Source of the DNA: Bacteroidota bacterium
Lineage (GTDB): Bacteria; Bacteroidota; Bacteroidia; JABEUT01
Length of the DNA stretch: 37,197 nt
Direction of reading: 5' to 3'
Assembly: GCA_021823405.1 (NCBI GenBank)
Contig: JAKAOA010000012.1
Span: 1 to 37,197 of the forward strand
The translations under genes were made by a program, and so were the position numbers. Below the pieces are notes generated by a model. It was given only the letters and a program-made list of their open reading frames with translations. It ran no database searches and was not told the DNA's origin. Numbering within the stretch: position 1 is the stretch's first letter; every line of letters begins with the position of its first letter. Below are positions 9,456 through 36,307 of this stretch, in pieces.

Positions 9456-9980
9456 ATGAATCCTGTGTGCTATCTCAACCTCATCTATTTGAGCATTTCC
9501 AATGCCGAAATTCTGATAGCCATACTTGCTTCACTGGCAGCTTCGATAGTAGTTTTCAGCATAACCGAGATAGTGGCTCCCTATTTCAGATACAGCAGAT
9601 TAGCCGGGAAATATGAAATATTCTGGATTAAAAACTGGCGCGAAGGCGGCGATGAAATTGATTTTACGAAACCGATGGGAAATGCCGAACTGACTTACAA
9701 AGGGGGTAACAAGTTAGAGATACTTTACAGGCAGACAAGACACGAAACGGAGTATAGCGAGGTTGACCACCGCTGGAAAGGAACTTTAATTATGGAAACT
9801 CCCCATAACGGCACTATCGCTTTTAATTATACGATGCTTGGCGGCAAACCCCTCGACATGCACAAACACCGTATCGGCTTCAAGAAAGTGATATGCGATC
9901 ACCGGCGCGACAAGAAGGTGATTTACCTTATCGGCTATCGCTCGGAGGGCTATGGCAAAGAGGTTCTGATTGAAAAATAA
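9456..9980 (+). CDS. Unknown protein with one N-terminal membrane helix
   Basis: This 174-residue protein has a single strong membrane helix near residues 17-42 (ILASLAASIVVFSITEIVAP). A soluble domain rich in beta strands and charged residues follows (KYEIFWIKNWREGG, RWKGTLIMETPHNG). I do not recognise the family. A -7-like TAATATTG lies 19 nt upstream of the ATG. The gene is isolated between trmD and a dispersed repeat. Length, clean start and lack of low complexity support a real gene. It is probably a membrane-anchored protein with its domain in the cytoplasm, because positively charged residues flank the C-terminal side of the helix. Confidence 0.7.
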   Translation: MNPVCYLNLIYLSISNAEILIAILASLAASIVVFSITEIVAPYFRYSRLAGKYEIFWIKNWREGGDEIDFTKPMGNAELTYKGGNKLEILYRQTRHETEYSEVDHRWKGTLIMETPHNGTIAFNYTMLGGKPLDMHKHRIGFKKVICDHRRDKKVIYLIGYRSEGYGKEVLIEK

Positions 9981-10133
9981 ATATACTGCTCGTAAACGAT
10001 TTTGCTACCGTGTGCCGCCTTAGCTATAGCGGTGGTGCAACGCGAAATACTTGTGCAAGCCGTTATACCGAAGCTTTGAATTTGTGGACCTTTACAACCC
10101 GATAGCTATCGGGTTCAATTGTGGTCGGTATAG
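9981..10133 (-). repeat. Dispersed double-palindrome element, copy C
   Basis: Read on the minus strand, this shows the same order of blocks as two other intergenic copies (34239-34380 and 36060-36195): ACAATTGAACCC, a first ATAGCTAT palindrome, a CACAAA block, a second palindrome with TAGCTA, and a closing block resembling ACACGGTnGnAAAAnCGnTTA. Its first palindrome, AACCCGATAGCTATCGGGTT, is perfect. The central part is diverged from the other two copies. It starts directly after the stop of the upstream gene and ends 71 nt before tRNA-Gly. Confidence 0.75.
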
Positions 10134-10203: not shown

Positions 10204-10276
10204 AGCGGAAAACGGGGCTCGAACCCGCGACCCTCAGCTTGGGAAGCTGATGCTCTACCAACTGAGCTATTTCCGC
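10204..10276 (-). tRNA. tRNA-Gly(CCC)
   Basis: This is a 73-nt cloverleaf on the minus strand. The acceptor stem GCGGAAA pairs with TTTCCGC, with U73 as discriminator. The D arm contains GCTCAGTTGGTAGAGC. The anticodon stem TCAGC/GCTGA encloses loop TTCCCAA, giving anticodon CCC, and the T arm contains GGTTCGAGCCC. The CCA end is not encoded. A -7 element TACATTTG lies just upstream. It reads the glycine codon GGG. Confidence 0.97.
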
Positions 10277-24878: not shown

Positions 24879-24926
24879 ATGGACACTTTTTACCGTGAAC
24901 CTGTGCCAATGTGTGCCATTTTTATA
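24879..24926 (-). repeat. Small inverted-repeat element, copy E3
   Basis: On the minus strand this contains GCACAGGTTCA followed after three bases by TAAAAAGTGTCCA, the same core as the two copies at 31673-31731 and 31759-31817. Its ends ATGGCACA and TGTCCAT pair with one bulged base, as the ends TTTGGACA/TGTCCAAA do in the other copies. It starts 2 nt after the stop of the terminase-small-subunit-like gene. Confidence 0.7.
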
Positions 24927-25059
24927 CGACTCGTACAAGTATTTTACATACGTAAAATCGCTAAGGGGCAGTACAGTTGAGGTGATAGCGAGAACAGCTC
25001 CGGTAGAACATCTGTAAGATTGCTAAATTTACGCATCTTTGTATAATTTTCATAAGACG

Positions 25060-31472: not shown

Positions 31473-31672
31473 CATTATTAGCTCAAAACGTTATAAGGAT
31501 ATATGATAATTACTGATTTACATTGATTTTACCGGATTTTTAACAGCCGTATCGGTACTTGAATGCCGACTGGAAATTGCAGCATTTCCGGTGAAGTAAC
31601 AGAAAAGCCATGTGTACTGTCTTTCGTATGGTGACCAATTCATAATAAAGTTCATAAATACATTACCATATT

Positions 31673-31731
31673 AGTGTGTATATAAATTTTGGACAGTTTT
31701 GCACAGGTTCACTATAAAAAGTGTCCAAATT
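31673..31731 (+). repeat. 59-nt spaced repeat, copy E1
   Basis: Near-identical to 31759-31817 (about four differences in 59 nt). It contains an internal inverted repeat TTTGGACA ... TGTCCAAA around a core GCACAGGTTCA and TAAAAAGTG. The core is shared with 24879-24926. Confidence 0.85.
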
Positions 31732-31758
31732 CTTATTTTCATATCCGCTTCCATATAT

Positions 31759-31817
31759 AGTGTGCATATAAATTTTGGACAGTTTTGCACAGGTTCAGGG
31801 TAAAAAGTGTCCAAATT
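31759..31817 (+). repeat. 59-nt spaced repeat, copy E2
   Basis: Second copy, starting 86 nt after E1, with the same hairpin ends TTTGGACA/TGTCCAAA. Its three bases after GCACAGGTTCA (GGG) resemble the E3 copy (CGG) more than E1 (CTA). Confidence 0.85.
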
Positions 31818-31897
31818 TGCCGCTCTTGTTGTCCCCGACAGGGGTATTCTGTATGAATTGAACCTGCTTAAATCACCTCCTGTAGCTATTAAACTGA

Positions 31898-31988
31898 ACG
31901 GGTTAACACTTTTTTGCCTTCTAAAAATCATAATATGTTGATTAGCAAGTTTATTCAATTTAAAACAGCCCGAAATCTGTTAACCCGT
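31898..31988. repeat. 10-bp inverted repeat with a third related half-site
   Basis: ACGGGTTAAC (31898-31907) and GTTAACCCGT (31979-31988) are exact complements 71 nt apart; CAACCCGTTAA follows at 31991. The function is unknown; it may mark the ends of a small inserted segment. Confidence 0.45.
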
Positions 31989-32007
31989 GTCAACCCGTTA
32001 AATTACT

Positions 32008-32128
32008 CTTAGCTCATAGCTTATATCTCTTAGTTCATCGCTTATAACTCACACCTTATATCTCATCGCTTATAGCTCATAGTTTAAATCTCATCGCTTA
32101 TAGCTCATAGTTTAAATCTCATAGTTAT
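32008..32128 (+). repeat. Imperfect tandem repeats, CTCATAGCTTATA type
   Basis: This is a run of 12-15-nt units of the form CTCATAGCTTATA, CTCATCGCTTATA and CTCATAGTTTAAAT. The last part contains a perfect 28-nt tandem duplication (32062-32089 and 32090-32117). There are no spacers of unique sequence, so it is not a CRISPR array. Confidence 0.85.
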
Positions 32129-32215
32129 AAAATGCAAATATATACATTTATTATTACATAATACATATTAAGTTAAAATAGTTATCAACAACTTGCCTCA
32201 CTTTGTTCTTAACAA

Positions 32216-32789: not shown

Positions 32790-33110
32790 ATGAAAGAATA
32801 TTTAGCTGCATTTGTTGTTGTTGCGATTTACATAGGTTTTTCTTTACTGTTTCATCGGAAATTTGTGAGCGGTAAACCCATTTGGCTGGTTATACTGCTA
32901 ATAGTAGTATATGGCATAGTGTCAAAGTATTATTTTGACCTCATTAACTATATCGACAATGAATTAGCAGCTATGGGAATCATATATTTCAATTTTGGAA
33001 CTGCTAATCTTAATTTATTATTGGTGTTTTTATTGTGTATTGTTCTTGGGGTGGCTAATATAGCGTATGCGTTAGGGAAACGATACAAGAACTTTAAGTC
33101 ATCGAAATGA
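32790..33110 (+). CDS. Small membrane protein, candidate immunity protein
   Basis: This 106-residue protein has three predicted helices (about 5-23, 30-48 and 72-95) and a Lys-rich C-terminus. The family is not recognised. Its start is 2 nt downstream of the toxin-like remnant stop, the standard toxin-immunity order, which is the only basis for the immunity suggestion. Retention of an intact immunity gene next to a broken toxin would be normal for orphan immunity. Confidence 0.6.
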   Translation: MKEYLAAFVVVAIYIGFSLLFHRKFVSGKPIWLVILLIVVYGIVSKYYFDLINYIDNELAAMGIIYFNFGTANLNLLLVFLLCIVLGVANIAYALGKRYKNFKSSK

Positions 33111-33114
33111 AATA

Positions 33115-33177
33115 ATGGATAGGATAAGTTGCGTCATACTGGACAACGACACGAAGAGCCGCGAGGTTTTGATATAA
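33115..33177 (+). pseudogene. Response-regulator start fragment, copy 1
   Basis: Twenty codons (MDRISCVILDNDTKSREVL followed by Ile and a stop) match the first 19 codons of 33732-33977 with only three nucleotide differences in 57. They resemble the beginning of a LytTR-type receiver domain. Similarity to copy 2 ends abruptly after the TTG codon at 33169-33171. The next 105 nt carry another open fragment (33171-33275, KYYQMIPAMDNTAVNKNVIP) that could be the tail of a further lost gene. Confidence 0.7.
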
Positions 33178-33306
33178 AATACTACCAAATGATACCGGCT
33201 ATGGACAATACTGCAGTGAATAAAAATGTGATACCATTGAAACCAGTAGTTAATGATCAGCTGCAAAAAAAATAGCAGAGAAGCGGATTAATGTTAAATT
33301 AGAGAT

Positions 33307-33708: not shown

Positions 33709-33731
33709 CGATTTAAACAGGAATAAAACTG

Positions 33732-33977
33732 ATGGACAGGATAAGCTGCGTCATACTGGACAATGACACGAAGAGCCGCGAGGTTTTGGCAGAATATTGT
33801 CATTCTATTCCGTATGTGGAAGTTGTAGGCAGTTATCACTCATCCGAGCGATTTGTTGAGTCTTTACTAAATGATACTATTATTGTACGATTAAACGGCG
33901 GTATTTGCCAGCCGACAGAAGGTACTTTTTCGACAGGAATATTTCTTTTTAATGCAATAGAATTAACCGAACATTAA
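33732..33977 (+). pseudogene. Truncated LytTR-type response regulator, copy 2
   Basis: This 81-codon ORF begins MDRISCVILDNDTKSREVLA and continues EYCHSIPYVEVVGSYHSSERFVESLL like the first half of a LytTR receiver domain. It then departs into an unrelated tail (NDTIIVRLNGGICQPTEGTF) without the phospho-acceptor region or a DNA-binding domain. Even the acidic pair is altered (DND rather than DDE). It is probably a decayed gene start joined to other DNA. Confidence 0.6.
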
Positions 33978-33982
33978 TTATT

Positions 33983-34228
33983 ATGCTTAAAAAAGCTTTT
34001 CTTATAGGGCTGCTCATTATTATGATTTCCATAGCAATGGCTCAAGATACAACAATGAATACAAATAATTACATCATTGTTTATAACGTTTTCGGACAAA
34101 TGATTTATCAGACGACCACCCCTGAATTCACACTAAATCTTGACTTAAACTCACAGCCACGAGGGCTTAACCTCTTAAGGGTTCAGAGCAGCGGCAATTA
34201 TTTTACCAAAAAGGTAGTAGTGCAGTAA
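33983..34228 (+). CDS. Mini-protein: signal peptide fused to T9SS-like sorting tail
   Basis: This 81-residue protein consists of a signal peptide (MLKKAFLIGLLIIMISIAMA, cleavage before QD), about eight linker residues, then a segment resembling a type IX secretion C-terminal domain: YIIVYNVFGQMIYQTTTPEF with LNSQPRGLNLLRVQSSGN and a terminal KKVVVQ. No cargo domain lies between. It could be a deletion product of a secreted protein or a genuine small protein. It starts 5 nt after the stop of the preceding fragment. Confidence 0.55.
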   Translation: MLKKAFLIGLLIIMISIAMAQDTTMNTNNYIIVYNVFGQMIYQTTTPEFTLNLDLNSQPRGLNLLRVQSSGNYFTKKVVVQ

Positions 34229-34238
34229 ATTCTATATC

Positions 34239-34380
34239 CATACCGACACAATTGAACACGACAAGCTATCGGATTGCAAATATTCACAAACCCCGTTAAG
34301 CGTAGTTTAGCTAAGAGTGGGAGTCGGACGTCCCTATAGCTATAAGGACACGGTTGTAAAACCGCTTAGGGGCAGCATAT
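34239..34380 (+). repeat. Dispersed double-palindrome element, copy A
   Basis: Blocks in order are ACAATTGAACA, a degenerate first palindrome (CGACAAGCTATCGG), CACAAACCCCGTT, AGTTTAGnnAAGAGTGGG, a second palindrome GTCC-CTATAGCTATAA-GGAC, and the closing ACACGGTTGTAAAACCG block. The 64 nt from 34287 match copy B (36104-36167) at roughly 50 positions. The first and last blocks match copy C. It lies between the toxin-related island and the asnS end. Confidence 0.8.
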
Positions 34381-34460: not shown

Positions 34461-35843
34461 CTAAAACTCGGCATTCTTTGGCGTTCTTGGGAATGGAATA
34501 ACATCACGAACATTTGTCATGCCGGTTGTGAACTGCAACAGTCGTTCCAAACCCAAACCAAAACCTGAATGGGGTGCGGTTCCGAACCTACGGGTATCAA
34601 GGTACCACTTCATTTCTTCTGGGGCGACTTTCATTTCCGTCATTCGCTTCAGCAGGGCATCGTAGTTTTCTTCCCGCTGCGAACCTCCGACTATTTCGCC
34701 TGAATAATGGAAGAGTATATCCATTGCCCTCACCGTTTTGCCATCTTCGTTCAGTTTCATGTAAAATGCCTTAATGTCTTTCGGGTAATCGGTCAGTATT
34801 ACGGGTTTATTGAAATGGTCAACGAGGAAATTCTCGTGTTCCTTTTGTAAATCAAGACCCCAATCGGGTTTAAATTCAAATTTTTTGTCGGATGATTTTA
34901 ATACATCTATTGCCTCCGTATAGGTCATTCTCTTAAATGGCGCTTTCAGAATATGATGCAATCTGTGCAGCAATTCCTTGTCATACATATTGTTGAGAAA
35001 CTCCATGTCGTCCTTGCATGCATCGAGAGTATGCGCGATAACATACTTAAGCAGGTCTTCGGCAAGGTCCATATTGTCATTTATATCAAAGAAAGCCATC
35101 TCCGGTTCTATCATCCAGAACTCGGCTAAGTGGCGCGGAGTGTTCGAGTTTTCCGCCCTGAAGGTAGGACCGAATGTATATACCTTCGAGAGCGCCAGCG
35201 CGGCAAGTTCACCTTCAAGTTGTCCGGAAACCGTCAGATAGGCGGGCTTACCGAAGAAATCTTCTTTAAAATTAACGGTTCCGTCAGGATTTATGGGTAC
35301 ATTTTTCAGGTCTAAGGTTGTTACCCTGAACATTTCACCCGCTCCTTCGGCATCCGCACCGGTAATAACAGGCGAGTGGAGATAGAAAAAACCATGGTCG
35401 TTGAAGTATTTGTGTATTGCGTAAGAGAGTGCATGCCGTATGCGGAGCACGGAACCGAACGTATTGGTACGCGGGCGCAGGTGGGCTATCTCCCTTAAGA
35501 ACTCAAGCGTATGTCCCTTCTTTTGCAGTGGATAAGTTTCGTCGGCGGTTCCATAAACCGCTATCTCCTTTGCCTGTATCTCTACGTTCTGCCCTTGCCC
35601 CTGCGATTTTACCAGTTCACCCTTTATGCGCACCGAGGAACCGGTTGTAATTTTTTTTAACAGGTCTTCGCCGAACAATACAATACTGGCAACCGCCTGT
35701 ATGTTATGGATTGTGGAACCGTCGTTTACTGCGATAAACGCAATTTCTTTGCTTCCGCGCTTGGTGCGAACCCAACCCTTAATTTCCACATCTCTGTTTA
35801 ATTCTGTTGAGTTCAGAAGGTCCTTTATTATGTATTTCTTCAT
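34461..35843 (-). CDS. asnS: Asparaginyl-tRNA synthetase
   Basis: This 460-residue class IIb synthetase has an N-terminal OB-fold anticodon-binding domain ([25 protein letters not shown]). Motif 2 is [22 protein letters not shown], with the Asn/Asp-type flipping loop. Motif 3 is [27 protein letters not shown]. The length and the AEFWMIEPE variant identify AsnRS rather than AspRS. It charges tRNA-Asn in the cytoplasm. It is monocistronic, with a -7 element TAACTTTG 30 nt upstream and a dispersed repeat downstream. No clear terminator is seen. Confidence 0.97.
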
Positions 35844-35881: not shown

Positions 35882-36059
35882 TAGCATTTCCTTATTGTGC
35901 AACTCCGCGGATATGTGGCATGCATTGTATCCGCCTCTGCGCTTTGTCTCCGGCACTATAATTGTTACCGGAATGCATATACCGCCAATGAATGAAAATG
36001 CAAAACCTTCATGTCGGTATGACTGCCAATAGAGGTATTTTGCATTGAGTCAACGCAAT

Positions 36060-36195
36060 TACGGCTACAATGGAACCCAATAGCTATCGGGCTTCACAAT
36101 GCGCAAACCCCGTTCGGCATAGTTTAGTGAAGAGTGGGAGTCGGGCATCCCGATAGCTATCGGGATGCTGTCGCCAAAGACCTTACGGGCATCAC
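36060..36195 (+). repeat. Dispersed double-palindrome element, copy B
   Basis: Same order as copy A: ACAATGGAACCC, first palindrome CCCAATAGCTATCGGG (one mismatch), GCAAACCCCGTTCGG, AGTTTAGTGAAGAGTGGG, then a perfect 24-nt palindrome centred at 36157 (arms GCATCCCG and CGGGATGC around ATAGCTAT), and a diverged closing block ending CTTACGGGCA. It has the best preserved second palindrome of the three copies. Confidence 0.8.
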
Positions 36196-36307
36196 AAAAA
36201 AATAATTTATAAAACAGGTTCTCCGAACGCCTTGGAAATTCACCAAAAGAAAAACCACAGATGGTTAGGGCAGCGGGATTAGTTTTCCAAATTATAACTT
36301 AATTTAT

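Follow-up and report, generated by a model that had tools for sequence, protein, structure and literature searches.

What is the element of about 140-155 bp, with two palindromes, that occurs three times between the genes of this contig? The window (the whole stretch of 37,197 nt analyzed here) is contig C7 (JAKAOA010000012.1) of a 2.8-Mb assembly in 183 contigs of a Bacteroidota bacterium (GCA_021823405.1). A reading made from the sequence alone had proposed three candidates: a non-autonomous mobile element (REP/MITE-like), a structured RNA, or a nucleoid or replication-related site. The first of these holds up best, and the copies probably belong to a family of miniature, non-coding and modular MITE-like elements, rich in hairpins and high in copy number, that target TA and are mobilised in trans.

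The three copies are indeed related, and all are intergenic. With a covariance model (R1) built from 16 sequences, all three window copies included, they score E = 9e-17, 5e-26 and 6e-25, far above chance; independently of the model, BLAST with copy 3 recovers copy 2 (75% identity, E = 5e-16). Further copies in the genome, on which the sequence-only reading had made its case depend, are abundant: a scan with the model gives about 113 at E ≤ 1e-3 in the 2.8 Mb, many dispersed copies in one genome, as in a MITE, and BLAST with copy 3 finds more than 30 separate places. In a 303-kb sample around the copies, analyzed with a crude ORF caller, 87 of the 113 lie between genes, against 16.9 ± 3.8 (maximum 29) when copies are placed at random in this sample, so that the suspected intergenic bias is real.

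The oriented copies have sharp common ends, TATACCGACC...GGGCAGTATA, and unrelated flanks. With up to three mismatches, the 5′ end pattern has 100 sites and the 3′ end pattern 110 (control pattern, 0). The terminal repeats are short and imperfect (TATACCGACC and TATACTGCCC are identical at 8 of 10 positions and unrelated beyond). Pairing of the ends yields discrete lengths of 67, 104, 119, 141 and 151 bp, and longer forms also occur, though more rarely; overall the elements measure 54-241 bp (MITEs are below 500 bp) and have no coding capacity. The consensus of the 104-bp class, in which the palindrome ATAGCTAT is missing, folds into two adjacent long hairpins (z = -10 vs. shuffles), hairpin A (TATACCGA...TTGAATTTGT...ACAAATTCAA...TCGGTATA) and hairpin B (ACTGCCCGTA...ATTTTGC...GCAAAAT...TACGGGCAGT). 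The palindrome would be an add-on. In the 119-bp class, CCCGATAGCTATCGGG is inserted within hairpin A; the 151-bp class has an extra hairpin in the loop of hairpin B; in the 141-bp class the middle is unrelated and a second palindrome is present; and in the 67-bp class both ends are fused via one palindrome. Forms of 164-241 bp appear to us to be combinations of these with a third hairpin, C. In the order of origin that we infer, the 104-bp form would be the basic unit, from which the other classes would arise by gain of a 16-18-bp palindrome in the hairpins, by a swap of the middle, or by fusion at the palindromes. In the 151-bp class, the hairpin in the loop (the ACCACCGCTATAGCTAAGGCGG region; window 10007-10040) has matches of 87-93% identity in four congeners (G010:C242, G002:C108, G008:C3, G008:C52 and G001:C14), where the whole element is absent.

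Copy 1 (9982-10132, minus strand) is a full-length element of the 151-bp class with TATA at both ends. It starts 1 bp past the stop codon of the ORF at 9456-9980 and ends 71 bp away from a tRNA gene (10204-10276; tRNA by Rfam), and its exact 16-bp palindrome CCCGATAGCTATCGGG (10098-10113) lies within the left hairpin. At least five other copies of this class in the genome are 80-85% identical to it. Copy 2 (34239-34379, plus strand), of the 141-bp class, has as neighbours the ORF at 33983-34228 (a secretion-tail protein) and a class-II tRNA synthetase (34461-35843, minus strand; Pfam). Upstream of it, two 71-bp direct copies (33110-33180 and 33727-33797, 87% identical) border small neighbouring ORFs. 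For copy 3, a related element is present at 36057-36196 (plus strand), much as first described, but it is the 141-class part of a longer composite that starts at 35978 (35978-36196, plus strand; nhmmer and R1). There it is preceded by a third-type hairpin (35978-36021) and the left arm of hairpin B (36022-36046); the nhmmer E-values are 7e-15 for hairpin C (with a profile of five sequences, the window copy among them), 0.006 for the B arm and 4e-7 for A. Its second palindrome, at 36149-36164, is an exact CCCGATAGCTATCGGG. A lone right-hand hairpin (hairpin B) at 24924-24973 (plus strand; nhmmer E = 5.6e-9), missed at first, is a partial fourth copy. None of the window copies holds an ORF of 80 aa or more.

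The two palindromes and the common block order attributed to each copy are only partly there. Four of the six palindromes are exact ATAGCTAT (0.84 expected by chance); the other two deviate, the second of copy 1 being TATAGCTA and the first of copy 2 CAAGCTATC. Because the window holds one 151-bp and two 141-bp forms, the block order is shared only in part: the CAAACCCCGTT block is confined to copies 2 and 3, and the middle of copy 1 reads CAAATTCAAAGC...GCACCACCGCTATAGCTAAGGCGG.

Strong predicted hairpins in intergenic positions would also be found in a structured RNA, or in a transcript-processing or terminator element under selection. We hold this to be highly improbable. In the alignment of 16 copies of the 119-bp class, 88% of cells pair, but of the 35 pairs tested only 2 have changed on both sides, a count below that of shuffles; the covariation score is no different from that of shuffles, and no covariation is significant. 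Pairing at 88% without compensatory change is what the hairpins of an old mobile element would show as they decay, and a maintained RNA is thus unsupported. No Rfam family corresponds to the element (an Rfam search of the window gave two tRNAs only), and there are no terminator calls at the copies at 34239 and 36057. The orientation to genes is neutral as well: co-directional, divergent and convergent contexts occur as 34, 17 and 16, without convergent-gene bias, and the strand relative to co-directional genes (12:22) is as expected without selection on orientation. No congener has the element.

The scan of related genomes that had been suggested returned no copy in 394 other Bacteroidia genomes, including ten congeners (covariance model, with stricter filters there). 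Nor was the element found in viral contigs (exact scans) or in plasmids or phages (blastn). The mean identity within classes is 65-83%, which makes the expansion old, and in the genomes sampled it is restricted to this lineage; the copies are probably no longer mobile. An orthologous empty site for copy 1 was sought in the congeners and none was found, synteny not being conserved there.

To see how the copies were inserted, empty sites were sought in the 303-kb sample with the fused left and right flanks of each copy. There is one clean filled/empty case, within a different repeat (ends CACTACTGTCCGG) that contains the element at C100:4938-5039 and lacks it at two other places. The filled site reads CAAAC-TA[TGCC...GGGCTGTA]TA-TTGGG, and the empty paralogues read CAAAC-TA-TTGAG (C91:9117) and CAAAC-AC-TTAAG (C153:49722). 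The insertion is at TA, with TA doubled, at a single independent site with an empty counterpart; this result also fits an element that carries its own TA, and the two cannot be formally separated. The earlier statement that no target-site duplication is visible is thereby corrected from elsewhere in the genome. In the family, the bases outside TATA are not conserved and have an A/T preference only; TATA at both ends, with the next bases free, follows from doubling of TA upon insertion. The unit itself would have TAC(C/T)G(A/C)CC as its ends on both sides, and after duplication of the TA target a copy would read TATAC...GTATA. The position C10:55930, considered as another empty site, is a deletion derivative that retains the right half of the element and was not used.

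Other repeats are present in the same genome. The second miniature repeat, with ends CACTACTGTCCGG...CCGGACAGTA, occurs at C153:49685-49940, C100:4901-5290, C91:9080 and C16:15300-15520; in C153 it is seemingly flanked by a direct repeat, GATTTATAG. The sole IS4-type transposase gene (C164, L226) has an end, CATTATTGTCCGA, weakly similar to this repeat (3 mismatches, a similarity that is not significant by itself). A further repeat region, longer and non-coding (TGGACAGTTTTGCACAGGTTC..., GTTAACCCGTGTCAACCCGTTA..., with a 14-bp tandem CTCATAGCTTATAT), is found in the window at 31670-32160 and at C10:55340-56150, C14:33700-34130, C149:17000-17600, C143 and C64; some of these are at contig ends, and the region sometimes holds a copy of the present element.

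Of all parts of the element, the 16-bp palindrome is conserved best (97% of cells paired), and it is present in 13 of 40 genomes of the class (control, 0), as might be expected if the copies were nucleoid-binding or replication-related sites based on ATAGCTAT. This too is hardly credible, as the palindrome is missing at about a fifth of the 5′ ends (GAAT instead of GAAC) and from many copies, sister species have 0-13 palindrome copies, and the element is absent from all congeners. In this genome CCCGATAGCTATCGGG has 60 sites, and 51 of the 55 within the sampled DNA fall in listed elements; the palindrome also occurs within a second, unrelated repeat. With 12 of 39 relatives containing it (control, 0), the palindrome is distributed more widely than the element. 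In the 20 contexts read it is always TCCCGATAGCTATCGGGA, and the contexts are otherwise unrelated. Alone, TCCCGATAGCTATCGGGA is seen in unrelated contexts in the congeners G007, G008 and G001 and in the class member G023 (L157-L176), several times inside apparent other hairpins (e.g., L168, L170). Within the element the palindrome occupies two places that are empty in palindrome-free forms, TTGAA|TTTG in the 104-bp class and the GGCG|CGC region in the 151-bp class. The perfect 18-bp TCCCGATAGCTATCGGGA might itself be a dispersed Bacteroidia insertion unit that prefers hairpin DNA, a suggestion we consider quite unlikely. No enzyme known to us would mobilise a unit of such small size; where the palindrome stands alone in congeners, inspection by eye of adjacent direct repeats gave no consistent duplication, and a literature search for its sequence found no paper containing it.

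The middle of the 141-bp class brings in another enzyme. The copies could be REP/BIME- or PATE-like units moved by a resident RAYT (REP-associated tyrosine transposase; HUH, IS200-like Y1), which would cut single-stranded hairpins, with the TATA ends as cleavage sites and not as a duplicated target. The genome has one RAYT above the family cut-off (G000:C16:7727-8293; NCBIfam NF047646, 103 bits), whose relatives place the genome in the Bacteroidota, and both its inverted flanks are homologous to the 141-class middle (17.5 and 13.2 bits, where 4000 shuffled flanks reach at most 6.8). In the window this segment lies at 34290-34334 in copy 2 (by nhmmer) and at 36107-36151 in copy 3, both on the plus strand. 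The lead CCCCGTTAAGCGTAG is found also in the RAYT flanks of another Bacteroidota genome (L144), and hairpins adjoin both ends of the element. Such a mode of movement is nevertheless unlikely for the family, since the common ends TATACCGACC/GGGCAGTATA are absent from the RAYT flanks and the RAYT-like segment is missing in four of the five main classes (67, 104, 119 and 151 bp). A target of TA only is also atypical of Y1 enzymes. The GTAG head varies within the 141-bp class (GTAG, ATAG, GCAG and CCG variants), and the middle segment is not itself a GC-rich palindrome, so the combination of GTAG head and GC-rich palindrome of a REP is lacking. In a predicted hairpin, the GCGTC that precedes the second palindrome is paired with GACGC and is not the unpaired tag of a short CGTC-tagged REP. 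PATEs have subterminal hairpins and a fixed target of 4-5 nt without duplication; in the present element hairpins are seen, and the target is TA with an A/T preference only. We read the RAYT-linked sequence as captured by, or shared with, one class, which does not demonstrate that the family is moved by the RAYT. Another Y1 transposase gene (G000:C74:7322-7657; L141) has a stop codon inside and its own, different inverted flanks, TCGCCCTATTTGCCACGCC / GGCAATTAGGGCGA.

The TA-targeting MITE-like family remains the preferred reading. The ends are all that classes with very different insides have in common, and this implies that the mobilising enzyme would recognise the ends and act in trans. The spread would be the work of a transposase that acted on these ends and is now presumably lost or undetected, and the parent transposase gene would be flanked by TACCGACC...GGGCAGTA. 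An autonomous parent with the common ends was not found among the IS630-type and IS4/IS5-type genes searched: the genome has no IS630-type DDE_3 gene (PF13358), and its sole DDE_Tnp_1 gene (PF01609) is without the ends of the family. Where ends pair at 0.5-5 kb, the pairs checked (without C72:6711-9819) are neighbouring separate elements and not an autonomous copy. The parent insertion sequence is often missing for accepted MITEs, and a missing parent is therefore not disqualifying.

As here, Correia elements fall into discrete size classes and sit at TA sites with TATA-like ends. With them and the RUP-type MITEs (Neisseria, Streptococcus), which are non-coding elements of about 100-200 bp, many, intergenic and highly structured (PMC10969869, PMC3049150), the present family shares the size range, the lack of coding, the many intergenic copies and the high secondary structure. 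It differs in sequence, in its shorter imperfect terminal repeats, in the exchange of the inside between classes, and in that no IS630-type parent gene was found in this genome. It is composite, modular and variable in length, as are the BOX elements of Streptococcus pneumoniae (67-637 bp via loss or gain of modules; PMC3049150), but the sequence is unrelated, there is no tandem boxB-like array, and modules are swapped or nested instead of counted. REP units measure 20-40 bp (PMC3733652), and inverted REPs on both sides define RAYTs (PMC2817692). Like REP/BIME/REPIN, the family forms palindromic intergenic mosaics, and in one class a segment is homologous to the sequences that flank the RAYT in inverted orientation; unlike them, it has a longer unit, whose ends are not beside the RAYT, most classes are without the segment, and the GTAG head is unconserved. 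Within the same phylum, Porphyromonas gingivalis has a MITE with internal repeats, described as containing a minisatellite (PMC4596501); by that description, the present family differs in having no minisatellite.

This is a new family of a known kind; what is unusual is the five insides between constant ends, together with the RAYT-linked segment. It accounts for a noticeable share of the repeats that lie between genes in this genome. The same ends with at least five insides, one of them RAYT-flank-like, make it a test case for the exchange of parts between REP-type elements and MITEs. It is also a warning that predicted intergenic hairpins in uncultured Bacteroidota may be debris of mobile elements and not RNAs or terminators.
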